A stretch of 64,000 bases of DNA from Macrotrachela quadricornifera (lineage: Eukaryota > Rotifera > Eurotatoria > Philodinida > Philodinidae): the NCBI GenBank assembly GCA_022393335.1, contig JAJEKB010020956.1:458529-522528 (forward strand), written 5' to 3'. The position numbers were made by a program, and so were the translations under genes. Positions 4,600-47,990 of the stretch are shown here, one piece after another. The notes under the pieces are model-generated. The model did not search any database, was not told where the DNA came from, and saw nothing but the letters and a program-made list of their open reading frames with translations. Positions within the stretch are counted from its first letter, which is position 1. Every line of letters begins with the position of its first letter.

Positions 4600-7194
4600 T
4601 TACAATTTCTTTTTTACTTCATCAAGGTTCTTTCTATATCCTTGAACATAAGGGTGATTTGATGGTAATGAGTGTTCTCCAATATTCACTGCACGTTTAT
4701 AATACGAAAATGCTTTCGAGTATTCATCCATGCTGTAATACACATTACCGATGTTGTTGTAGGACATAGCCAAATCAGGATGATTTGCAGGAAGTGATCG
4801 TTGTTTAATTTCAAGGGCTTTTTCATGAGACAAAAGTGCTTTCGAGTATTCACCCATGTTGGAATACACCGAACCGATGTTACTGTAGCACGCAGCCAAA
4901 TCAGGATGATTTGCAGGAAGTGATTGTTGTTGAATTTCAAGGGCTTTTTCATAATACGAAAGTGCTTTCGAGTATTCGTCCATGTTCTTATACATCGAGC
5001 CGATGTTGTTGTAGGACACAGCCAAATGAGGATGATTTGCAGGAAGCGACTGTTTTTGAATTTCAAGGGTTTTTTCATAATACGAAAGTGCTTTTGAATA
5101 TTCACCCATGGTTCCATAGACATTACCGATGTTGCCGTAGGATCCAGCCAAATCAGGATGATTTTCAGGAAGTGATTGTTGTTGAATTTCAAGGGCTTTT
5201 TCATGAGACGAAAGTGCTTTTGAGTATTCACTCATTTGCAAATACACTAAACCTAGCGATAGAAAGGATTTAGCCAAATCAGGATGATTTGCAGGAAGTG
5301 ATTGCTGCTGAATTTCAAGGGCTTTTTCATAAGACGAAAATGCTTTCGAGTATTCGCCCATGGTGTGATACATATAACCGATGTTATTGTAGGACACAGC
5401 CAGTTCAGGATGATTTGCAGGAAGTGATTGTTGATGAATTTGAAGGATTTTTTCATAAAACGAAAGTGCTTTCGAGTATTCACCCATGTTGTAATACACA
5501 TTAGCGATGCTGCCGCAGGATCCAGCCAAATCAGGATAATTTGCAGGAAGTGATTGTTGTTTAATTTCAAGGGCTGTTTCATAATACGAAAGTGCTTTCG
5601 AGTATTTACCCAGGCTATTGTACACCGCACCAATATTGTGGTAGAGCACACCAAAATCAGGGTGATTTGAAGGAAGAATTTTTTGATAGATTTCAAGTGA
5701 TTTTTCGTAGAAAGCAATTGCTTCTTGATATTCTCCTTGCATATCTTTTACCCATACAAGATCCTTATAAATATTGGCTTTTTCCCTTTCATCATTTGTT
5801 TGTTCAAGAAGAACTTCATAAATTTCTTGAGCTTTTTTTGGTTGACCTATTTTTCCTAGTAATAAGCCCAATCGAGCCCATCCTGTTGGTCCATCAGTTT
5901 CTTTTCGGATACAATCAGTAAGTATACGACGATCCTTATCATTATCACTGATAAGAGACAAATCCACTTGAAAGAGACGAGGATTACCATCCAGTTGCTT
6001 CATATCAACTATACGAAATACTGTGTGCATGGAGAAGAGAACTTCATCCTCCTTTGGAAAATAGCTAATACCTTTGATGGAAGCAAAAGGAGTTGATGGT
6101 ACTGAAGGATTCATAGTCATGACGAAAAGGGTACCCACCATGTCGGGATTAGTAAGAGCTTTGTGGGCAAAAGGTAGAGAAATTTGACGATCTTTGCTGG
6201 TGGATAAAAAATTGTTAAAGGACATTAGACCACCTTTGTTATTCTTCAATTGATTACAATCTGTTTTGGACAAGGCTTGACCACGATAAACAGAGAAAGT
6301 TGTAACATTATGATGAGAATGATGACCAAATTGTTCTTTGTGTAATTGATCGATCTGTCGATGTAAATCATTGATGAAAAATCCCGTTTTAATCATAATA
6401 TCTCCATTCATTGTTCGAAGACCACGATTGAGCATTGGATATAGAAATGATTCACATGTGTACCACCAAATTGGAGTTTTATTATGATAGTTTTGTTTCA
6501 ATTGTTTGACATTGATCAATTCTTGTTCATTGTCAACGAAAGCATCTGCACAACAATCAATAAATTCTTGGAAATGGATTTCTTCAAATTTAATGGATAA
6601 TAAGATTTCTTTGAAGATTTGTGTATACACAAAAGTTGAATCTAATTGATCCAACTTTGTATTCGATGTTTTACCACTTGTATTCATAATGCTAATGGAA
6701 ATTAAATTTTGTTCACATTGTTGAGCTGCTTCTTTGAGAGCAGCACAAATTGGAGTTATTTCTGTGAATACACCCCGAATTTTTGACCATTCTTTAGCCC
6801 ATTGTTCGTGGTATTTTTTATTACCACAAAAGATAAAAATTGAATCTACTTGGGACATATTGTGAATACGAGGCACAATATGTTCACCAAATGCACCAGA
6901 TATAATCATACATACCTTTTCCTTGTCATTAATTTCTAGAAACTGTATACATTCTTGTTCATCAGTAAATGTATTGACGCTGTTTATTATACGGCGCAGC
7001 CGTGCTACGGTGTTTTGGCAATCAGCATTATATTCTGCATCAATATTCTTATCTAACCAAATGAGAAGGACATTTTGTACCATTTTGATGTTAATTCGTC
7101 GGCGTGCAGTTGCATCTTTTGGAACAGTTGATACTTTTTCTGTTTCTTTTGCATTATTAGTTTTGTCAGCAGTCGTTGATTTTTGCTTGCTCAT
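4600..7194 (-). CDS. Arginine-type ADP-ribosyltransferase with C-terminal TPR (kinesin-light-chain-like) array
   Basis: Single exon, 864 aa, ATG at 7194. Residues ~38-165 form an alternating strand/helix region (NVLLIWLD, KVCMIISGAF, SIFIFCG) resembling a receiver-like fold; its role is unknown. Residues ~295-405 carry the mono-ADP-ribosyltransferase R-S-E signature: R304 in VYRGQ, S331/S333 in the STS motif, and E382-x-E384 in KEDEVLF. This is the arrangement used by arginine-specific enzymes that move ADP-ribose from NAD+ to protein arginines. Residues ~440-485 look like one divergent TPR, and 491-864 hold eight full 42-residue TPRs plus a partial ninth (A-L-S-Y-Y-E-K-A-L-E-I pattern). No signal peptide is visible, so it is probably cytoplasmic. 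The TPR array presumably selects targets. Domain calls are from motifs; substrate is unknown. Confidence 0.88.
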   Translation of the reverse strand: MSKQKSTTADKTNNAKETEKVSTVPKDATARRRINIKMVQNVLLIWLDKNIDAEYNADCQNTVARLRRIINSVNTFTDEQECIQFLEINDKEKVCMIISGAFGEHIVPRIHNMSQVDSIFIFCGNKKYHEQWAKEWSKIRGVFTEITPICAALKEAAQQCEQNLISISIMNTSGKTSNTKLDQLDSTFVYTQIFKEILLSIKFEEIHFQEFIDCCADAFVDNEQELINVKQLKQNYHNKTPIWWYTCESFLYPMLNRGLRTMNGDIMIKTGFFINDLHRQIDQLHKEQFGHHSHHNVTTFSVYRGQALSKTDCNQLKNNKGGLMSFNNFLSTSKDRQISLPFAHKALTNPDMVGTLFVMTMNPSVPSTPFASIKGISYFPKEDEVLFSMHTVFRIVDMKQLDGNPRLFQVDLSLISDNDKDRRILTDCIRKETDGPTGWARLGLLLGKIGQPKKAQEIYEVLLEQTNDEREKANIYKDLVWVKDMQGEYQEAIAFYEKSLEIYQKILPSNHPDFGVLYHNIGAVYNSLGKYSKALSYYETALEIKQQSLPANYPDLAGSCGSIANVYYNMGEYSKALSFYEKILQIHQQSLPANHPELAVSYNNIGYMYHTMGEYSKAFSSYEKALEIQQQSLPANHPDLAKSFLSLGLVYLQMSEYSKALSSHEKALEIQQQSLPENHPDLAGSYGNIGNVYGTMGEYSKALSYYEKTLEIQKQSLPANHPHLAVSYNNIGSMYKNMDEYSKALSYYEKALEIQQQSLPANHPDLAACYSNIGSVYSNMGEYSKALLSHEKALEIKQRSLPANHPDLAMSYNNIGNVYYSMDEYSKAFSYYKRAVNIGEHSLPSNHPYVQGYRKNLDEVKKKL
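4603..5724 (-). repeat. 126-bp tandem repeats encoding the TPR array
   Basis: About nine units of 126 bases (42 codons) lie head to tail. DNA identity between units is high: the string GATGATTTGCAGGAAGTGAT recurs almost unchanged at one-unit spacing on the plus strand. That degree of nucleotide conservation suggests recent unit duplication or gene conversion. The plus-strand ORFs here are shadows of this periodicity. Confidence 0.9.
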
Positions 7195-7835
7195 AATTTT
7201 GATATATGAATGTTTTTAAATTTGAAATAATTGAAAAAAATACTGGTGAAAATATGATTTAAAATGTGATCTTTTATGAGATATCTACTTCTTTGCTAGA
7301 TTTTACTTTCTTCGTTCCGCTCTCTCTCTTTTTTTCGAATGTCTTTTTTTTTATTTTATTATTGTAGGGTAACAGAGATCCTTTTGCTTCCTTCTTTTAG
7401 TTCGTTTCTATCTCGAATGATGAGAGGTAAAGAATCAAAGAAGGTAACGAAGAGAAAGAAAACGACACAAGATAAGAACACGAGAATATGAAAGACGAAT
7501 AGAATGAATACAGACAGTAACAGCTAAAACAATGTGAAGGTATGTGAATAACATACCTGTAAGATACCTCTCTACCAAGCAACAAAATATATGTCCACAC
7601 ACATTCGATGATATGAGCAAAAGCAACAAAAATAAAATTGAAAGAGGGCAACAAAGCTTAGAGAAGAACAAAAAAAACGAAAACACATTCACCGAAAAAA
7701 ATGAGATTAAAGAATAGTGCATATGGTTAAAAACAACAATACGAATATGAATGGGTACAGTCTCATGATAAAAAGAAAAAAATAGAAGAAAAATGTGAAT
7801 TGACGATATTTCCATTTGTGGATGGAAAACTTTAA
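7195..7835. promoter_or_regulatory. 5' flank of the TPR-ADP-ribosyltransferase gene, purine-rich on plus strand
   Basis: Upstream of the minus-strand start, 7300-7360 is pyrimidine-rich on plus, and 7420-7520 is a long GAAAG/AAGAA-rich stretch. Similar purine-rich tracts lie 5' of the minus-strand SDR gene (17040-17200) and the GTPase gene (26380-26530). A shared promoter character is inference. The segment from about 7360 also shares sequence with 17540-17900. ORFs at 7397-7815 are low-complexity products and are not annotated. Confidence 0.3.
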
Positions 7836-24629: not shown

Positions 24630-26099
24630 TTAATCAAAGATTTTAGCAAGAACTTTTTTCTTGGGACATGTAATTTTACAAAAACCTTCCGAACGTTCAA
24701 CATTAGAATTTAAAGGATCAACATGGCATTTTAAAGGAATTTGTAATTTAAATTTACCAATAGGAATTTTTTCTTGAAGAATATTTGAATTTGTTAATGA
24801 TTCTTTAAAATCAGTACGACAACCTTCGATAATAATGGCTTCTTCAACAATTTGAATACGTGATTCACCTTTTTTAAAACCTGCAAGTTCAACTATACCA
24901 TAAATATCATTATCAGTTTCATATAAACTATAAAGAGGTTGCCATTGTCCATGTTCTGTTGAACTAATACCAATAAAATAACCTGCATCATCATAAAGAA
25001 GTTTTGGTGATAAATTTAATGGATATGGATCTTGATCAAGATTTTCCATTTCTTTTCGATATGAAAGTACAATACGTGGTTCTTTAACATGCATTTGTAC
25101 TTGAAATTTTTGTTGATTATTTTCATTTAATTGATTATCTTGTTCTAGATTATTGATAAATATTTGTGGTAATTTAGTGTTAACAAATTTTATCATTTCT
25201 TTGACAACATTAAGATTTCGTCTACAATCTGTTGCTGTTTGTAAGATATTCATTATACCATCAATAGATTGTCTATTCCATATTTTTGCTGCATCAAAAC
25301 CATTTTTTGTAAAAATAAAATGACGAAGTGTTATATTATTTTGTACAGAACGAAAAAATTGAACATTTGTAGATGTTTGATTGATCTGTAATGTCATTGT
25401 TTCAAATTTAGCATCGAAAAGATATATAACTTCTTCTTCAACTACATTATCTGCATCTTCAACTGTTTCAACATCCATTAAATTATGAATAATAATTATA
25501 TTTTTATTAGTATTGAAATTTTCAGAATGTTTTAATACTTGTTGAATATATGATTGATCTGTAGCACGTAAACGATTAACAACAATGATAATATATGAAC
25601 ATAAATGAAGTGCTATTTCTCTTAAAAGAGCTTCAGTAGCTTTTTTATCCTCGAGTTTATCTTTTGGTATTGGAGTATCAGTACCAGCAGTATCAATAAA
25701 AATTATATTTGAAGCCAATTTTCTACCTGCTGTTATTGATATACCTTCCGTATGTATTAAATTACCATTCGGTAATTGAATATCACAAAGTTGATTAAGT
25801 AAAAATGATTTTCCACGATTATATGAACCAAGAATTGCAACAACTACACCATGATTATCTTCAGTTGTTGATGATTTTGGTTCAACATTCGTTGTATTAT
25901 TTCCAAGTACAATTTCCCAACCTAATGTTGATAATGCAGTAAGACTATCAATACGAATAATAAGATCATATGGTGTAACAATTGGAGCTGCAGGAATTTC
26001 ATTTTTAAGATCTGTATTATTTCGATATTTATCCCAGAGTATTTTGCTACCACCACCAAGCGCTGCTAGACCACCAAGAACAATCGGTAGGGCTGCCAT
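24630..26099 (-). CDS. GBP/dynamin-like large GTPase with C-terminal Hsp20 (alpha-crystallin)-like domain
   Basis: 489 aa, one exon, ATG at 26099. A hydrophobic Gly/Ala/Leu-rich N-terminus (1-22) may insert in membrane. The GTPase domain has the P-loop GSYNRGKS (91-98) followed by FLLN, as in guanylate-binding proteins and atlastins, the G3 motif DTAG (136-139), and an N-x-x-D-like G4 in HNLMD (206-209). Residues ~300-345 look helical and polar. From ~395 an Hsp20-like beta-sandwich follows: YGIVELAGFKKGESRI, VEEAIIIEGCR, IPIGKFKLQIPL and EGFCKITCPKK match the usual strands, including the A-G-F and I-x-C-P-K-K positions. GTPases of this type act in membrane remodelling and cell-autonomous defence; the chaperone-like tail is unusual. 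Function is inferred from domains only. Confidence 0.82.
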   Translation of the reverse strand: MAALPIVLGGLAALGGGSKILWDKYRNNTDLKNEIPAAPIVTPYDLIIRIDSLTALSTLGWEIVLGNNTTNVEPKSSTTEDNHGVVVAILGSYNRGKSFLLNQLCDIQLPNGNLIHTEGISITAGRKLASNIIFIDTAGTDTPIPKDKLEDKKATEALLREIALHLCSYIIIVVNRLRATDQSYIQQVLKHSENFNTNKNIIIIHNLMDVETVEDADNVVEEEVIYLFDAKFETMTLQINQTSTNVQFFRSVQNNITLRHFIFTKNGFDAAKIWNRQSIDGIMNILQTATDCRRNLNVVKEMIKFVNTKLPQIFINNLEQDNQLNENNQQKFQVQMHVKEPRIVLSYRKEMENLDQDPYPLNLSPKLLYDDAGYFIGISSTEHGQWQPLYSLYETDNDIYGIVELAGFKKGESRIQIVEEAIIIEGCRTDFKESLTNSNILQEKIPIGKFKLQIPLKCHVDPLNSNVERSEGFCKITCPKKKVLAKIFD

Positions 26100-29000
26100 A
26101 CTAAATATGAAATAAAAGCAATATAGATAATTAGTGTTATGTGTATGTTTGAAGTATTATATATAGAAATAATTTGAACTAATCTTAAATATGAAATATA
26201 ATTGATAAAAACTACGATTTAGTGATAATGATTGTTAGATCTTTAATCGCTGTTATGTATATAAGGTTATTAATGAAGAGAACAGTAAGTATTTATACTA
26301 GATAAAAAGTGAATATGGTTTGTTCTATGAAATAAGCTATTACAGTTGGAATAATCCATGATCATAACATAAAACAAAAGAAACTGTAAATGGATTAAAC
26401 CCAAAAAAGAAAAAAAAGCGAAGAGAAGTACCAGACAAAATGAAAGAAAGGAAGAAAAAAGAGAGAGAGTGATAGTTGATAACATATATGTAAAGAACGA
26501 AGAAAAGAAAGAGAACGAACATATATGCTACATGTGGATAATATCCTAATCCATTTCTATTTTACGGCGGATCTTATGTCACATATTTATTTGACCATGA
26601 TTTTTCTCACAAAATAAAAATATTGAATAAAATAAATGCTAGTGTTTTTCTTTCCATAAAACAGAAAAAAGAGAGAGGCAAGAGAGTCCTACAATAATGC
26701 ATCATCTACATGATACTAAACCGATACAGAACGAAAGAAATACAAAAGTATGAAAGTAGAAGAAAGTTAGAAGAGAAAACGAGTTGAAATGTACCGTGGC
26801 TTATAGTCATGAAGGATACTTCACTCTACTTTGTTGTATATAACTATTATTTCATCTACCGTTTGTTTTATGCTTGCTTGGTTACTTTATTATTACACAA
26901 AGTATAGAAGAGGTATTTAACTAATGAAAAAAAAACATTAAAATAGGTCACCTATAATCATATTATTGTGAAAGAATAATATATTTATTTAATACTCATA
27001 TCTTCTGCATATATACAGAATGGGCGAAAAAATAAAGAGACAATATTGACAATTATTATTTTGATATCATAAAGCATATTTTTTTAAATCTCTTCAACTA
27101 TTTTCATTTGAATTAACAGTGACATTTAGTAAATAACAGCCCATTCGAGTATTACTTTATTGTGTGGATTGATTTCTCGTATTTTCTTTGTACTATCGGA
27201 TTTGTGCACAGACTGTATTATGTATTTTCATCTGAAAAAATATATACTATCGTTTATATATAGCATAACTGAAAATATTCACTTGTTCATATTAGGAAAG
27301 ACTATTTTGAATTTTGTACATATTTAGTCAAAAATTAAACGATTCGAACGTTATTCTGTAAACTAAAATTTGGTTTGGAGTTATTATTGGACCATTTTAT
27401 TTCATAAAACTGTCACTGTATCCTCTTAACGTCTAAAGATGAAGAAAAAGATTATTTCTATTAGCTAATTAAAAGATATGACCCGATTCATTAATCATTA
27501 CGATATCTGAGTTTGGCTCTAATGAATTTTTTCTGTACAAGATTTAATCAAAGATCCTAGATATGCGATAAAAGATCAATCTTCAAAAAGAATTTAAAAT
27601 AATATCATTGCAGAAATGCGACGCTTATATCGATCGGTATCTCGAAAGATTACAACCATATAGAAATTTAGATGGGAATTATAATGAGTCGACAAAAAAA
27701 AATGTTTTAAGAATATAATTACAATATTAATTTTCCTTTTATTCTTATCGAATATGTAAATGCTATTTTTTTTTCTCATTTCTTATTCAGACGAACATGT
27801 AAAAAGCGCATAACGATACTCTTATTAAGTTAATTTTCACTCTAATTTTAAAAGATTTTTGATCAATTTCAAAAAACAAACTTTCTATATATTATAATTA
27901 TCTGTTTTTGTTGGCCAAGAAATGAAATCACTGCAATAAAAACTACCAAGACTAAAACAACAACAACATGAACATTATATACCAAATACGAAAAATACTA
28001 CGTATTAAAATAATCCATCTTGAGCTATTATTCAATAAAATATCATGATATGAGTATCTGAATTTAAGGCATATAATGAAGTTATTGGTTAGAAAAGTCG
28101 AAACTAGTTGTAGTTGCTCGTATTCACTCTATTTCTTTATCTTTAATAATAGAATATCATAAAATCTACAGAATCCAATTCTGAGCGATCATTTAAGAAA
28201 TAATATTTTGATAATCAATGAATGTATGCATTTATCCTTGTTGGAGTATCCAATCGTGAGGCATGCTTGATAAATGTACCGTATACAAGACTTCTATATC
28301 CTTTCTGCGATTAATACCGATCCGTCCTTGATATCGTAATTAGCGATTATAATATTAAATTTTTGCCAATTTGGAAAAGCTCATTATAGATAATATTTTT
28401 TATTTGTATATTAGTATCTTTGACATTCTATTGAAGAGTCGTAGGGAGGTATGTAACGAGATATGCCACTATCATCTATCTCTCGGCCTCCATATATCCT
28501 GTGACCTTTCTTTTCTACTATGACCGTTATGCTTAATCAATATTCATTGTTCTATTCTTTCTGTATAAGTGTATAGTCTGTGAACGGGAACTTGTTGCAT
28601 GAAGAAACCAAATAAAGTGTGTGTTAATATATCCGGACCATTGCTTTCATCATGGTGTTCATTACACGACATACTATACTTATCAAACAAGAAGAATCGA
28701 TGAAATGATAAAATCAGAACAAACGAAACTATGTAATTACTTCAATTACATCATACAATGCAACTTTCTGACAAAATTCTTTTTTTTTTTCTACTAAAAA
28801 TATCATGAAAATTTAATTTATGCATTGAACTTATTTTTATGACAATTTTATTTTACTGATCATTTTATCAGAATAAATTCTTAAATCTGAATCATTCAAT
28901 TAAGTAGAATTTTAAGATATTTACAAAATTTCAATATGATAATTATTAATTATCAACATCATCTCTATAGTGAAAAAAAAATTGAGCTCGAGACAGTGTA

Positions 29001-40064: not shown

Positions 40065-43000
40065 CTAATCACATTCTTCTAATTCAAATTGGTATATAAT
40101 TCCATTTCGAGCTGTTTCATCATATTCACTGATTATTTTTATTAAAAACATTGAACGAGGTAGAATAAGAACTTCTTGTTCATCGGATACCTCGGAAATT
40201 TGTTGAATTGCATAAGCTGTATGATGATGTTTAATTCTATAGATGCATATAGCAGAAAAATAACAAAAATTCAAATGTAATGTTCGACGTACATAATCTC
40301 CTTGACCATCTAATGCTGCCATTTCTGCTTGCAAAAAATCTTTTGTAGTTGATAAAAGTGCTGTTATCATGACTTTTGTTCCAACACTATATTTAATTAA
40401 ATCATCTTTAGAAATGACCATTCCACGATATGTCTCACCTAGATAAATAAATGATTCAAATGAATTAAATGTTCGTAATACATAGATAAATCGATGAAAA
40501 TCCGTTATTTCATTTGTATTTTCAAGCAGATATTTATTGAAAACCATAGAAAAATTCGTAACGCTGGTAAAAGCTCGAAGAATATACGTGGGATCATCGT
40601 TTGCTTTGTTTAAAAACCAATTAATTATCATTTTTTCCTTCCTAAAAAGTTCATTCGATAAGGAACACAAATGTTGAATTTTTGTCAACAGTTCACAATA
40701 GTTCGAGTTAGTCAACAATTGATCGTCAAATGATAAGATATCTTTTGTCCATTCTGAGTATTGATAACTGAGATCTGTTAAAAATCGTAGAATAACATTT
40801 GAACGTTTAAAAAGACATTTAATCATATCATTAGATGCTCTTTCATAAGCAGTCATTTTATGTTTAGCATCACGAATGGATCGTGATGCACCTTTTCTCA
40901 ATAGAAGTCGTATAATATCTTTATTATTTTTAGAAACAGCCACATGTAAAGCAGTACTTCCATTTCGCTGCACTTCATTTATCTGATCAAGTTCCATTTG
41001 TGAGAGATATTCTTTCACTTGATTGATAGCATTGCTCTTACAAGCTTTAAAAAGATCTGAAGCTGTGATAGAAGTTGATGAACTTATAATCAATGGTAAT
41101 ATTTCCTTATTTACATTACGTAACAAGTTTGATAATAAATCAATTGCATCATCGAATCCCAATTGTGTAAAATTAATTACTTCAGTTTCATCGAAAATTT
41201 CTTCTAAATAGTTTTGCATTCGATAATATTTGTCAATGATTATCGGTACAATCTTCAATTTTTTTTTCAAGGCATACTGTAAAATAGCTCGACATGTATT
41301 GCTTCTTTCATAGTGTTCACTTAAATATACAACAATAATATTGATTGAATCACATGCTTGAAGTTTCCAGTGTAGCAACTTGTCGTTTTCAGTTTTGAAT
41401 TCAGAATTGTATGAAAACCAAACTCGAAATCCATTTGCAATTAGACTATGATAAATCTGTTGGCATGATTTTTGATCATCGAGACTACAATCTAGAATTA
41501 TATCTTGTTGCATTCCATAGTTTGCGAGTTTTTCATAATCAGAAAAATCACTTTCAATACTTCGTAAGCTCTTTATTCCAAAACCATCACCCAATGTCCA
41601 TAATAAACCCAAGGCATAACATTCAGATATTCGTAACATTTGCATTTGACCTTTTAACTGTTTCCTAATAATCGAAGAAAATGATAATGTCCAGAGAAAT
41701 TCATATACATTCAATGTCTGTAAATGTAGATTCAATAAGAAATAATAGATTTTATTAAGACGTCCAATAACGTCTTGAATAGATTTATAATGAAATATTG
41801 TTGAAAATAAATCAAAATAACTTATATTATTATGCCACAATTCTACTAATTGAGATTTATTCTCAAGTAAATCAAAACTACGACGAGTAATTGTTTCAGC
41901 TATGTTTAATCGTTCAAGTGCTGTTTCATCAATCAAAATCAGTATTAAAGATAGAGCATGAGTATGAATTGAAGTGTAAGATGGATGAATATATGGCAAA
42001 CAAATATCTACTGCTTTTTTTGCACGTAACCAATTTCGGTTATTGTTGATAGTTGGTTGAGTACTGAAAACTATGAAATATTGAATAATAAGTTTAATTA
42101 ATTTTTCTTCATCAATGGATACTGATGATATTTCTTTCTGCTTAAATTTTTCATATGTTAATATCTTCAGCAGAATTTCCATATATTCTTCATGATTTAA
42201 CAAAAACAGTTCAGTTCGAATGGGATTTGGATCATGGAACGATGGTTTTGGAAATACTTTTTTATAATCTTTTATTAACAAAGTAAGAACTTTTCGCATA
42301 CAATATAACGTATCATTAGACCATTGATCAATGTATTTGGAACGATGAATGATGAACACCATGTATGAATGCATGAGTGGCACTGCAATTTCCAATTGGC
42401 CTCCAATATATTCATAGATTTGTGTACAAAAATACGCACATGTTCCTATATAAAATTTATCAATAGGTCGACAATCTATTTCAGACGAATATACACATTG
42501 CTTGTGAAAAGGATTAAGTAAACAGTCGACAATAGCCCATCGTAATGAATCCTCTGATCTTATATCTCTAATATAATATTTTGTTATATGAATTAATCGA
42601 TCAAACCACAATATAAGCTCCGTTAAATAAATACTATTTTGTAACTTTGACGAACGAGTATTGTTTGAATTAATGTATTTTATAATATCTATCCATGTAG
42701 ATTCAAACTTGAAGTTTAAACAGAATTCTTCTATAGTTTTGTTTTCTGCTATGCGTTTTCCTTTTTCTGCTTTACTGATTTCAAATGAAAAGAATATTTT
42801 AGAATTTAACTGGCGAACATTTTTCAAATAATTTAATTCAGATTGATCGCATTGTTCTTCATTTGTCTTCCACCATTGATTCCAAAGGAAATCAGCTACT
42901 TGTTCAATTTTAAATAACAGTTTTTTTTGTTCTTTTCCAGAAAATAGTTCATCGGTAAATAGATCATTTGATAACTGTAAATATAAATGTATAATACTGT

Positions 43001-43106
43001 TGAACTGATCGATCATTGATTTTGTAACAATTGTTATTTGATTATTCTCCAAATTTAATCTAGACGATTCAATTAGATTATTAACTTTTTGAACGAAATC
43101 ATTCAT
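40065..43106 (-). CDS. TIR-like / ankyrin / ADP-ribosyltransferase multidomain protein A
   Basis: Single exon, 1,013 aa from ATG 43106 (the frame stays open to a TTG at 43127, but ATG at 43106 is the likely start). Residues ~1-525 are helical with no recognised motif and align with protein B (44558-47990), e.g. FYIGTC and LLWTLGDGFGI. A TIR-like fold spans ~534-665 (DIILDCSLDD, NIIVVYLSEHY, KLKIVPIIID). By alignment to SARM1-type TIRs, the NADase glutamate position is Ala (CRAILQYAL). Ankyrin repeats ~683-768 (GSTALHVAVSKNNKDIIRLL). The C-terminal ADP-ribosyltransferase has R894 in TYRGM, S919 in LLSTT and E976-x-E978 in DEQEVLILP: a complete R-S-ExE set. Predicted cytosolic NAD+-dependent protein modifier with signalling scaffolds. 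Divergent head-to-head with protein B. Confidence 0.88.
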   Translation of the reverse strand: MNDFVQKVNNLIESSRLNLENNQITIVTKSMIDQFNSIIHLYLQLSNDLFTDELFSGKEQKKLLFKIEQVADFLWNQWWKTNEEQCDQSELNYLKNVRQLNSKIFFSFEISKAEKGKRIAENKTIEEFCLNFKFESTWIDIIKYINSNNTRSSKLQNSIYLTELILWFDRLIHITKYYIRDIRSEDSLRWAIVDCLLNPFHKQCVYSSEIDCRPIDKFYIGTCAYFCTQIYEYIGGQLEIAVPLMHSYMVFIIHRSKYIDQWSNDTLYCMRKVLTLLIKDYKKVFPKPSFHDPNPIRTELFLLNHEEYMEILLKILTYEKFKQKEISSVSIDEEKLIKLIIQYFIVFSTQPTINNNRNWLRAKKAVDICLPYIHPSYTSIHTHALSLILILIDETALERLNIAETITRRSFDLLENKSQLVELWHNNISYFDLFSTIFHYKSIQDVIGRLNKIYYFLLNLHLQTLNVYEFLWTLSFSSIIRKQLKGQMQMLRISECYALGLLWTLGDGFGIKSLRSIESDFSDYEKLANYGMQQDIILDCSLDDQKSCQQIYHSLIANGFRVWFSYNSEFKTENDKLLHWKLQACDSINIIVVYLSEHYERSNTCRAILQYALKKKLKIVPIIIDKYYRMQNYLEEIFDETEVINFTQLGFDDAIDLLSNLLRNVNKEILPLIISSSTSITASDLFKACKSNAINQVKEYLSQMELDQINEVQRNGSTALHVAVSKNNKDIIRLLLRKGASRSIRDAKHKMTAYERASNDMIKCLFKRSNVILRFLTDLSYQYSEWTKDILSFDDQLLTNSNYCELLTKIQHLCSLSNELFRKEKMIINWFLNKANDDPTYILRAFTSVTNFSMVFNKYLLENTNEITDFHRFIYVLRTFNSFESFIYLGETYRGMVISKDDLIKYSVGTKVMITALLSTTKDFLQAEMAALDGQGDYVRRTLHLNFCYFSAICIYRIKHHHTAYAIQQISEVSDEQEVLILPRSMFLIKIISEYDETARNGIIYQFELEECD

Positions 43107-43156
43107 TTTATTATATATTCTCTTCAATGATTTAGTAAATTAAATCCTACTGATTG

Positions 43157-43331
43157 CTAATGAATGATTTTGTCACCAGAAGATAATTCAGCAGTAAGAT
43201 GAGTTCTATAGAATTCACGAGGACCACCTAAATATAAATATAACATTCGTATTTTCAAATCACATGGAGAGCGTGTGAGTACAAGCGGAAGTGAATAGAT
43301 GGGTTCAGATCCATCTTTATAATGCATATAC
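43157..43331 (-). other. Orphan exon-like coding stretch
   Basis: On the minus strand a TTTGTGCAG acceptor-like sequence is followed by 57 codons (RTYMHYKDGSEPIYSLPL, LTRSPCDLKIRMLYLYLGG, PREFYRTHLTAEL) and a TAG at 43157-43159. Composition looks like real protein rather than AT-rich noise, but no upstream exon is visible and the family is unknown. It may be a relic last exon between the two TIR/ADP-ribosyltransferase genes. Confidence 0.3.
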
Positions 43332-44557
43332 GTTCTCTGCACAAATATGTATTTGTTATGGTCTGTGGACTTTATGCCTCACCGTAATCGAAGATTTTAA
43401 AAATCTGTGGTCGTCAGATCGTCTATAGTTTTAATGAAGGTATATCGCATCTGAAAATTTCCGAACCAAACTCTAGACTTTTCATATTCAGATTTGATAA
43501 ATTCTACTATGAAATGATGAGATGTAACTTTTTACACTTATATTCTTACATTACTTTCACATCATCTCGTCTGAAAGAATGAAATAAAATAGAGAGATCT
43601 TATAATTAACACGGCTTAACTTGGAATATTGGAATCTATAAATTTCTCTTTCCTTCGAAAATTTTTTCGACAGTATAAAAAGCCTTTTGTTTTTAACACG
43701 TAAAAATTTTCTTCTTTTAACTTTAACTGCTTAAATGAAAACTGAAAGCGCTTCTGTTGTTTTTTCTCTTCTTTTCTAAAATAAACACAGGTAATGGAAT
43801 TAATATTTCTACATTAAATTTAATTGAAAGAAAGAAGCTATATATATTTTTTTCTTAATATTTACACATAAAAAATTGTCTGTTTTGTCTAAAAAGTTAT
43901 TTACGTTCAGTAATACTAGTAAACAACAAATGCTTTTACAGCAGGTTAGATATAAAGAATTTCTAAAGTTTGTCGAAACATTTCAAGTCTAGTCTACTGC
44001 TGAAATTTCATAATCATACTGGTCATCTATATTATACAGTTGTATTGTTTACAAATGCTTGAAACATATCTTGTATATTAATATTTTGTATTAAGTACCA
44101 TCCCTAAAATTGAAATTCTTGAGATGTTTGAAGCAGAATAAAATTATAATTTGTCTTTGAGTTATCTAGTATTTGGCGTTGTAAAGAAAAAATAATAATC
44201 TAATCACGTTTTTTCTTTCATTGTAGAATATTACTTGCAGCCATTGAAACTGATGCTTTTACAAAATAAAACTACTTACTACATTGCTACCGATCTATTA
44301 ATAGGTTGTGAGAGTATGGCATGAGTGATGACATAGCGTTTAAAATAGAAATTTAATAGCATGCATCGAGTTGCAAGAAAGAAAATTTAACAACAGAAGA
44401 AAAGTTTTAACGCACCTCCATATGCACAATGCATATAATAATGCAGATGATTTACTTCGATGTGTTTATGATCTTTATTTTTGACGATTTCGAATTTTAG
44501 ATGAAGGAATCTCAATCATTCTAGTTTTTCAATTCAAGTTAAAGTGATAACAAACAA
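43332..44557. promoter_or_regulatory. Region between the divergent TIR/ADP-ribosyltransferase genes
   Basis: About 1.2 kb of AT-rich DNA holding the 5' flank of protein B and, beyond the orphan exon, that of protein A. No palindrome or gene was recognised. A shared bidirectional promoter is possible but not visible. Confidence 0.3.
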
Positions 44558-47500
44558 ATGGATGAGCTCTTGGAAATCTTATCTCTACAAGAGAAATGTA
44601 CACCTGAAGAGCAAATAAAAGAAAAATATATTAGTCAGTTGACGAAAGAGATTGACCAATGTTTAAGTATACCTAACGATGAATTTTTTGCAGCTTTATT
44701 TTCTTATAACGATAGATATGCACGAAAACATCCTCTGTCAAAAGTTCTTGAGATTGCCGATAGTTTATGGAATGAATGGATGAAAAGAGGTTACATTTAT
44801 GAAGATTATGAATGTCAGTTTTTAAGAACTATTTATCTACTAAATACAAAATTAATTCATTCTGATCAAGCTTCACCTAAGAAGAAAGCAGAACAACAGT
44901 ATAAAGGAGATGATCCTGTTCTTTCATATGAATTTAGCGATTTGCTGTTTAATTCTATACACCATAAAACCTTCCGAACCATCTTATCTTCAGTAAGTAC
45001 TTCAATTGCTTCGTCATCAACATATTCCGGATTGGTTGAATTAATGATGTGGTTAGATATGTACGCTACTTTCAATCAACGTTTTTCATATGAACAAGAT
45101 CAACTAAAAGAACAGATGGATCTAATTCAACCATGGATTTTAGATGAAAATTATAAGAAATATTTATCTTCATATAGCAGTGAAATTAATATCGTAAAAA
45201 AATTCTACATTGGCACATGTTCGTTGTTCTGCTCATCACTATATAAGTATGGCGGATATCGCGAACCGTATCGATGGAGTAAACTTGTTGAATCACTTTT
45301 ATTCTATTTTCAATCTTATATTATTGAATCAGCACAATTTATAACACAATGGACTGACGATCATTTATATTGTGCTGTTGGAATTATGAATATAATTACA
45401 AATTATTATTGTCAAACCAATAAAAATAAAAATTATCCATCGCTTCAGCCAAATTTGTTTCGACAATACAAACAGTTTCACGAGAGTTTAATTAAAATTC
45501 TAGAACAAGAACAATTTCGACAACAAATTCTATCAACTAGGACAAATTATGAAACACATCTTATCGATTTAATAATGAAATATGTTTTAACTGTATTGGA
45601 TGCATATAATGACATTAAGTATATACTACGATTCATGAATACATTTCCTATTTTTGCAAAATTTCTCGAAACTGAACATGCCGAAATAAATCTGAATGCA
45701 TTATATCTATGTTCAAAAATTTGTATAGATGATGATATAAGAAAACTGAATATAGCAGAGAAATTAACGTCTATCTATTTACGATCGATTGAAGATTTAA
45801 CAGCAATTTACTTACAACTGAACGAAGATGTGAAGAAACAATATTCAAAATCGTCTACTCTAACAATGCGTCAAAGAACATATATTGAGACTCGATTAAA
45901 TACACATCTAGACTATTTTTCATTATTGACAACTAAAACTTCTATACAAGAAGCAATAGGTATTCGAAATGGATTAAGATATTTTGTTGATTATCCAGAA
46001 AAAGAAAAATTTCAGGAAATATTTCACATTCTTTGGTCATTATCATTTCATCCATTAATACAAAAACAATTCCGACATAACGAACTTCTTTTAACTACAA
46101 TAAGAAAATGTCAAAAAGAAAAGAACGATATCATAAGTATCATTTTATGGACACTTGGAGATCATATAGGAATAGCAAACACGGCATTGGCAAGAGAGGA
46201 ACATGATCATAAAAACTTTTCGATGAATTTTTATGTAAACAAATGGGAAGAAATTTTTCCGTATAAAGTTATTCTTAGTTACAGTGATTACGATCATGAT
46301 ATAGGTGAAAAGATTTCCAATCATTTACGCATTAACGGATTTCGTCCACTATGTGAATTGTCTATTTCTTTGTTGCAGTCAAATCAATTAGATTCATTAC
46401 AAAATATGATTATTTGTTTGAGTGAATCTTATGAACAAAGTAATTTTGATCGTGCTATTCTTCAATTTTCTACAAAGAAACAATTTAATATTATTCCTAT
46501 TATTATTGAAAAATATTATAAACCACAAGGTTGGATTAAAGAAATATTTTCCCAAACACAGATTATCGATTTAACACAACTAACATTTATTGATTCAATA
46601 AATATGTTAATCAATATTTTACAGAACAAGATCAAAATAAAATCGAAAGTTTCTTCAGCTGAAATGACTATAGATAATATTGATCAATCCGAGAAAATTT
46701 CTCAAGATCTATTTAAAGCTTGCAAAAGAAATGATGTAAGAAAATTAAGAAAATATCTTAAAACATTAACAATAGATCAAATTAATCGAATAGGATTGGA
46801 TGGAAATACTGCATTACATATCGCTACGAATTGTAATCATAAAGAAATCATTGAACTTTTATTGAATAATGAAATATCAAGATCAATTCGAAATTCAATA
46901 ACAAATCTTACTGCATATGAAGAAGCTTCTACATTAGAAATTAAACAACTTTTTCAACGTATAAATGATGTTAATCGATTTGTTGCAGAGTCATCTCCGG
47001 AATTTTTCGAATGGACTCTTCATTATGATGATCCAAGTTTACAACGATCACAATTTCGACGACAATTACAAAATCCATTTAAAGTAGATAGAAATGATGT
47101 CCGAACAACACTTAAAGATTATCAATTATCAATGATTTTTCGTGAAATATTAGAAAAATTTTCAGAAAATTTCTTTACACCATTATCTTCAACTGAAATT
47201 TCATCAAGACATAAATCATTTATTGATTGGTTTTTTCAACAAGCAATTGAAAAAGCAAATTCAATATATATTCTCAAAGCTTATACTAGCACAACAAGTT
47301 TCTATCGAATTCTGAATAAAACTTTAGCTCAATTTGCATTAGGATATTTCGATGCAATTCTTCAAGAATCCACTGATTATAAAGTTGTTGCTTCTATCAT
47401 AAGTCTTATTTCGTTGCTTATCTATGATCCTGATATTGATAAATATGATTATCGTGGAAAAACCTATCGAGGAATGTTATTTACAGAAAAAGATCTTATG

Positions 47501-47990
47501 AAATATGTTGTTGGTTCAAAATTAATGAATATTTCTTTTGTATCCACATCAAAAACTCGTGATGTAGCCGAGATATTTGCAGATGAATGTACTCAATCTT
47601 CTTTTTCTTCAACATCAAATAAAAATCTTATCAATATACCAACAATTTGTATATATACAATCAAAAACATGGGAACTGCACTTGATATTGAAAAAATATC
47701 GGAAATTCCAGATGAACGTGAAGTATTATTATTACCATTTTCAGCATTTCAAATTCGATGTTTACGAAGATTAGATAAAACAGTTAAGAAAGGAATTGCA
47801 GTTGAAGTGGAATTAGAAGAATGTGACGAATATCAAGGAAAAGAATTTCAAATGCATAAACAACGACAACTTTTACAATCCTTGTTACAACAACATGATG
47901 GTATGAGTTTCTTTTCATCATTGAAAAATAGTTTGTTTTTTTTACTTTTTTAGATTTTACAAATAATATAGACAATCGCATATCAGATTA
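44558..47990 (+). CDS. TIR-like / ankyrin / ADP-ribosyltransferase multidomain protein B
   Basis: Exon 1 44558-47900 with a likely 52-nt terminal intron (47901-47952, GTATGAG donor and CTTTTTAG acceptor) and final exon to TAG 47988-47990, about 1,126 aa. Without splicing the frame ends at 47953 (1,131 aa, with a Phe/Leu-rich tail read from the intron). N-terminal helical region ~1-560 parallels protein A (FYIGTC, ILWTLGDHIGIA). TIR-like domain ~568-690 (KVILSYSDYD, MIICLSESY, FNIIPIIIEKYY), again with Ala (DRAILQFS) at the NADase glutamate position. Ankyrin ~717-800 (GNTALHIATNCNHKEIIELL). C-terminal ADP-ribosyltransferase: R971 in TYRGM, STS at 996-998, E1053-x-E1055 in DEREVLLLP. Role as for protein A; the conserved triad suggests an active arginine ADP-ribosyltransferase. 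Confidence 0.88.

Follow-up and report, generated by a model that had tools for sequence, protein, structure and literature searches.

TIR domains act as scaffolds or as enzymes that cleave nicotinamide adenine dinucleotide (NAD+). Among the described proteins in which such a domain follows an armadillo (ARM) solenoid are SARM1 and TIR-1, NAD+ hydrolases of the composition ARM-SAM-SAM-TIR; mutation of the SARM1 glutamate abolishes the NADase activity, as stated in the accessible part of PMC8635717. Lineage-specific TIR proteins are known from other animals, e.g., 10 Armadillo-fold TIR proteins in Aplysia and the ecTIR-DC proteins of placozoans, their function being unknown or hypothesised to be that of an adaptor, and the accessible parts of the two sources mention no joined ADP-ribosyltransferase (ART) (PMC9334734; PMC6321704). 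Here, we describe two neighboring genes, P1 and P2, in a stretch of 64,000 base pairs (bp) from the bdelloid rotifer Macrotrachela quadricornifera (assembly GCA_022393335.1, contig JAJEKB010020956.1, positions 458,529-522,528 of the forward strand), which is called the window below.

By models and sequence comparison, each of the two proteins is an ARM/HEAT-type solenoid, a TIR domain, ankyrin repeats, and an ART fold in one chain. Similarly to SARM1 and TIR-1, P1 has an ARM-type solenoid before the TIR domain in one intracellular chain, and its output domain is expected to use NAD+. Unlike these proteins, P1 and P2 have neither SAM domains before TIR nor the TIR catalytic glutamate, and carry ankyrin repeats and an ART after it. 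A SARM1 chain (9l2d) was the third structural match of P1 in Foldseek (E 8.8e-4), with a TM score of just 0.14 by query. The ARM fold with TIR is shared with the Aplysia proteins, as far as these are described in the accessible part of the source (PMC9334734), whereas the attached ART sets P1 and P2 apart from both the Aplysia and the placozoan proteins. We propose, with a probability of about 0.5, that P1 and P2 are intracellular switch proteins that arose by fusion of an ARM-TIR with an ankyrin-ART protein, the TIR domain being a non-catalytic scaffold and the ART the enzyme.

Architecture of the Gene Pair

P1 (40065-43106, minus strand; 1013 amino acids from the first Met) and P2 (44558-47953, plus strand; 1131 amino acids) are each encoded by one open frame with no internal stops. 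The genes are divergent, head to head on opposite strands, and the spacer of 1451 bp that separates their first-Met codons (43107-44557) is a candidate shared promoter region. The proteins are paralogous nearly end to end (BLASTP; 31% identity, E 3e-122). Such a pair of giant paralogues had been recognized in the first-pass annotation, made from the DNA letters alone; of the region it proposed, 40065-47990, the start stands and the end overshoots the P2 stop at 47953.

Residues 1-530 of P1 (41517-43106) form an ARM/HEAT-type helical solenoid in a confident AlphaFold model, with the TIR domain directly after it. The corresponding region of P2 (residues 1-565, 44558-46252) is assigned to the same type by alignment with P1. 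Hence, the N-terminus of approximately 530 residues that had been annotated as helical and unclassified is helical, and an unclassified or novel fold is rejected, since the P1 part models as a solenoid of this type.

The TIR domain occupies residues 531-666 of P1 (41109-41516) and, in a degenerate form with the BB-loop/alpha-B stretch mostly gone, residues 568-700 of P2 (46259-46657). The Pfam model TIR_2 passes its cut-off in P1 (4.1e-9) and falls slightly below it in P2 (7.6e-6; 26.9 bits, cut-off 28). The fold is kept in the P1 model, and the P2 region displays an alternating strand/helix pattern; a structure search with the P2 model (VIA-align) was filled by ankyrin chains and hence does not test the P2 TIR. 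No SAM domain was found in either protein with Pfam up to E 1. Ankyrin repeats, seen both in Pfam and in the models, follow at residues 682-770 of P1 (40797-41063) and 714-803 of P2 (46697-46966).

The ART domain comprises residues 776-1013 of P1 (40068-40781) and 809-1090 of P2 (46982-47827). For the P2 TIR-to-ART model, the 50 matches listed by Foldseek all have the ART fold, among them XopAI (3.1e-8), Vis, and HopU1, and so do the two best matches of the full-length P1 model. XopAI, C3, and Certhrax are ARTs, which is not explicit in all of the titles. The bacterial effectors and toxins XopAI, HopU1, Vis, and C3 have the ART fold alone in common with the pair, at 13-20% identity among the matches listed. 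The annotated R-S-ExE triads were recovered in full, with all nine residues in place: R894 (40425-40427), S919 (40350-40352), E976 (40179-40181), and E978 (40173-40175) in P1; R971 (47468-47470), S996 (47543-47545) with S998, E1053 (47714-47716), and E1055 (47720-47722) in P2. Thus, the profile and structure searches that had been suggested for this locus recovered the TIR and ART folds as well as the ankyrin repeats, the ART on the strength of the fold and of homology to short ankyrin-ART proteins bearing PF01129, such as L009 (6.7e-8, 32.6 bits). The output domain is probably an intracellular, arginine-type mono-ADP-ribosyltransferase, both catalysis and arginine specificity being predictions.

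The C-terminal tail of P2 (residues 1091-1131, 47828-47950), which P1 lacks in the alignment, has no Pfam domain. Defense-system models gave no match in P2 and a weak one in P1 over the ankyrin region alone, and NCBIfam yielded only repeat- and fold-level matches far under the cut-off.

Loss of the TIR Glutamate and Retention of the ART Residues

The alignment column of the TIR catalytic glutamate contains E in all 24 unfused TIRs and I or V in all 10 rows of the fused clade, nine of which have the ankyrin-ART part attached (the tenth, P0006, ends after TIR). The unfused rows are four ARM-TIR genes of the same genome and 20 of 83 other unfused matches, taken from the upper part of the match list, where seven, mostly look-alikes, were skipped. 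In the window, the residue is I608 in P1 (41283-41285) and I634 in P2 (46457-46459), and isoleucine is also read by eye in P0005 from Adineta steineri. Hence, the glutamate expected of an enzymatic TIR (NADase) is absent from the fused clade. A Fisher test on these counts was discarded, as the rows share ancestry.

The profile of unfused TIRs matches solved TIR structures including Cat1, TLR2, MyD88, RPS4, RUN1, and tir-1. In the alignments listed, TLR2 has E at this column, Cat1 a glutamate, and MyD88 Q. For RUN1, the aligned stretch ends at this column (profile position 71) on chain residue 81, presumably the catalytic E100 that is equivalent to E642 of SARM1.

The R, S, E, and E of the ART, in turn, are kept in 54/54 aligned rows, including all 10 fused ones. 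The proposal of the first-pass annotation that a TIR scaffold stands beside an NAD+-using effector is thereby strengthened. The glutamate loss and the fusion fall on one branch, and either may have come first.

Origin of the Fused Proteins

Each half of the fused proteins has family members that stand alone, unfused, in the same genome (450 Mb searched). Four unfused ARM-TIR genes (C2332, C5032, C4973, and C4058; TIR_2 at 5.9e-22 to 6e-27) have an N-terminus and a TIR domain homologous to those of the fused proteins, from which they differ in keeping the TIR glutamate (4/4) and in having no ankyrin-ART part. A SAM match follows the TIR in three of the four, always under the cut-off (E 0.0075-0.066). 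Short ankyrin-ART frames are numerous in the genome; they contain the same module with R-S-ExE, and are named NAD(P)(+)--arginine ADP-ribosyltransferase in several sources. Unlike P1 and P2, they do not exceed 596 amino acids and have no TIR among the matches listed (an ARM part would be invisible to Pfam). One of them had 71 protein matches, the first 49 of which (P0007-P0055) align with the ankyrin-ART or ART part, with Rotaria, Didymodactylos, and Adineta as the named sources; the remaining matches look ankyrin-only.

In the tree of the N-terminus and TIR (14 rows), the 10 fused-clade rows are split from the four unfused ones with support of 100/99. The tree of the ankyrin-ART part comprises 10 fused and 44 short proteins (54 rows); here, the fused proteins are drawn inside the short ones and make up one side of a branch that is present in 97% of 200 bootstrap trees. 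Rooting is by midpoint. Since a single fused branch in both trees is explained by one fusion, the trees fit one joining of an ARM-TIR with an ankyrin-ART protein, as far as sequences tell.

The P1 and P2 clades have support of at least 100/99 in both trees, and their split is older than that of locus C4804, described below, which itself branches off before the window and A. steineri separate in both trees. The N-terminus and TIR tree groups the window P1 with A. steineri (94/93) and the C4804 P1 with P0002 (99/95), and the ankyrin-ART tree places the C4804 P1 outside P0002, A. steineri, and the window together (92/78).

At C3952:53000-59372 (L068, L008), an ARM-like plus TIR gene that keeps the glutamate ends approximately 1.1 kb upstream of a short ankyrin-ART gene on the same strand. 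A second fusion was not accepted here: the TIR frame closes, and the Met at which the ankyrin-ART frame starts is shared with stand-alone relatives; a spliced transcript may nevertheless join the two. The layout could picture how such a fusion starts; in the tree, an ankyrin-ART other than that of C3952 is closest to the fused clade.

Copies in the Genome, Relatives, and Selection

The pair is present at three loci (the window, C4388, and C4804), head to head in each, with uninterrupted frames in 6/6 genes. The C4388 pair is 95% identical to that of the window, its locus is collinear over the matches listed (~21-49.5 kb), and its spacer between first-Met codons (L032) of 2225 bp is ~770 bp longer. 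No listed match connects the window at ~49.6-61.5 kb with C4388:243.9-257.5 kb, which points to a large segment inserted, deleted, or replaced ~1.6 kb downstream of P2. The C4804 pair is more diverged (~56% identity; synonymous divergence, Ks, 0.75-0.80), with a spacer of 350 bp. The flanks do not bear out C4804 as a homoeologous block. Over 21-27 kb on each side, listed with the exception of ~35.9-41.4 kb, what matches besides the pair is a TPR/ART-like frame (24% identity to the ART-TPR gene of the window) together with short stretches resembling the window at 2.6-2.8 kb and at 57.9-60.4 kb. These matches being out of order, we call C4804 a diverged paired locus.

A lone and more diverged fourth copy, C4677, consists of an ARM frame and a TIR-ankyrin-ART frame ~775 bp apart. 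The gap starts with a GTAAGT donor-like site, and from its sequence the copy looks intron-split. Read by eye, the ends of the gap (L030:5417-6190) are inverted-repeat-like, so that it may be a transposon-derived intron.

The protein search, covering 5.8 billion proteins, depends on shared short words; it did not connect P1 to P2, and relatives can thus be missed. Over 100% of its length, P1 matches P0001 from A. steineri (62%) and P0002 from another source (51%), both predicted as single proteins, and two further matches cover the ankyrin part alone. P2 matches P0005 (A. steineri) with a coverage of 63% and P0006 with one of 61%. The same architecture, for which a search of other rotifers had been suggested, thus has relatives in A. 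steineri. P0002 and P0006 are probably neighbors, as the contig given for each has 203,110 bases; the contigs of P0001 and P0005 differ in size.

The ratios of nonsynonymous to synonymous substitution rates (dN/dS) show purifying selection on the coding sequences of the pair. Whole-gene values are 0.43 (P1) and 0.33 (P2) against C4388, and 0.39 (P1) and 0.43 (P2) against C4804; in the latter comparison, the ART has 0.30-0.34 and the N-terminus 0.41-0.47.

Genome Repertoire and Literature

Both domain families are abundant in this genome. PF01129 has at least 150 matches from the best 150 of 1473 candidate places, with all listed rows above the cut-off, and TIR_2 at least 151 from the best 150 of 349; these lower bounds include near-identical copies. 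Among 14 control genomes, PF01129 is found in none and TIR_2 in four. The ART matches include frames of 2000-7200 amino acids. The window itself contains a second ART gene (4600-7215, minus strand), in which TPR repeats, matched as nine TPR_10 stretches, come after PF01129 (8.8e-7). Other features of the window are a gene for a GBP/dynamin-like GTPase (24630-26156, minus strand) that ends in an HSP20-like segment, matched just under the HSP20 cut-off, and masked or unknown bases at ~51.3-51.8 kb that yield X in translated frames.

Our literature search found no paper on a bdelloid ADP-ribosyltransferase, subscription papers being mostly outside its coverage, and turned up neither the fused form nor the loss of the TIR residue. 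Term searches of PMC11258130, bearing on the immune role, found no mention of ADP-ribosylation, TIR, ankyrin, or Toll, and those of PMC5916493 no mention of ADP-ribosylation, TIR domain, ankyrin, or immunity; PMC8494770 yielded nothing useful. In the accessible part of PMC12220480, the genes lower in flight are enriched for the term protein ADP-ribosylation, these being other genes than those described here.

Proposed Mechanism and Alternatives

In the fused lineage, the TIR domain would have lost the glutamate needed by TIR NADases, and the ART would have become the enzyme. The ARM solenoid and the ankyrin repeats may keep the protein off, recognize a ligand or partner, or both. Upon release, the TIR domains would pair or assemble, bringing together or freeing the ARTs, which would then transfer ADP-ribose onto arginines of target proteins. 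P1 and P2 are diverged paralogues that have stayed together; they may be co-expressed from a shared promoter region and joined in a mixed complex. Of this scheme, catalysis and its arginine specificity, autoinhibition, the trigger, assembly, and co-expression are inferred, as is the immune or stress role. By analogy with TIR, ARM-TIR, and ART proteins elsewhere, an immune, stress-sensing, or anti-mobile-element role is plausible, since the accessible part of PMC8195603 counts both TIR and ART as effectors in systems of immunity and cell death. Overall, the first-pass interpretation is partly supported.

A more specific scenario is tentative: an ancestral SARM1-like ARM-TIR NADase would have lost the TIR residue once and the ankyrin-ART taken over, so that TIR assembly triggers ADP-ribosylation rather than NAD+ destruction, with the head-to-head paralogues, paired since before the split from A. 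steineri, forming an obligate pair.

Several observations weigh against a scaffold TIR that drives an ART output. Concerning the glutamate, the scaffold TIR of TLR2 also has E, and thus its presence does not prove an enzyme; the loss is confined to one clade and hence counts as one event, not ten. The BB-loop region, which takes part in TIR assembly (PMC8635717, accessible part), is mostly missing from the P2-type TIRs, and therefore TIR-driven assembly may fail for P2. The P1 TIR is weakly constrained against C4388 (dN/dS 0.62). Neither protein reaches the Pfam ART cut-off, PF01129 being absent from P1 and weak in P2 (E 0.0054, 16.5 bits, cut-off 22.3), which is why the ART call relies on homology and fold. 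Finally, the ankyrin-ART tree supports the fused clade at 96/84, with a long branch for C4677; the placement of P0002 relative to C4804 differs between the trees; the P2-like P0006 stops after TIR, with no ankyrin-ART part in the predicted protein; and P0005 is without part of the N-terminus. The shortening of the latter two may be due either to prediction errors or to real losses.

The main rival, which we regard as doubtful, is that the ART is a plug-in tail, i.e., a localized, constitutive mono-ADP-ribosyltransferase, with the ARM, TIR, and ankyrin parts serving binding or localization alone, no switch, and the glutamate free of selection. The huge expansion of ARTs in this genome, their joining to other partners as in the ART-TPR gene of the window, the degenerate P2-type TIR, and the weak constraint on the P1 TIR against C4388 fit such a tail. 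However, dN/dS is 0.34-0.42 in the other TIR comparisons, and both genes have kept the full ARM-TIR-ankyrin-ART length at paired loci diverged to Ks ~0.8.

It is unlikely that the proteins are dual NAD+ enzymes in which the TIR cleaves or binds NAD+ via a residue other than the glutamate and works together with the ART, e.g., in NAD+ sensing. The P1 TIR fold is kept in the model, and TirD of D. discoideum oligomerized and was toxic in yeast regardless of its putative catalytic glutamate (PMC13142454, accessible part), but I or V replaces this residue throughout the fused clade and in 0/24 unfused rows, and the P2-type copies have lost the BB-loop region.

Still less probable is decay of genes that are intact by chance and have no present function. 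The P1 dN/dS of 0.43 between near-identical copies is not low and the C4677 copy is interrupted by a segment with transposon-like ends, yet all paired-locus frames are uninterrupted, relatives exist in other sources, and every fused row retains the ART residues. That the fusion is a prediction artefact joining two separate genes is most improbable, for even though the parts occur as separate genes, side by side at C3952, and P0006 ends after TIR, each of the six paired-locus genes has all of its domains in one open frame, and P0001 and P0002 were predicted as single proteins.

Implications

Mollusc ARM-TIR proteins were already known, as were short ankyrin-ART proteins in databases; the fused form and its loss of the TIR glutamate appear new within the literature searched. 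On the switch reading, evolution would have exchanged the output enzyme of a switch protein of the immune type. If true, a lineage that lost the TIR enzyme residue where a second NAD+ enzyme was attached would be a natural experiment on the interchange of the two TIR modes, and bdelloid rotifers, with a genome rich in TIR and ART genes, would gain a testable intracellular ADP-ribosylation switch.

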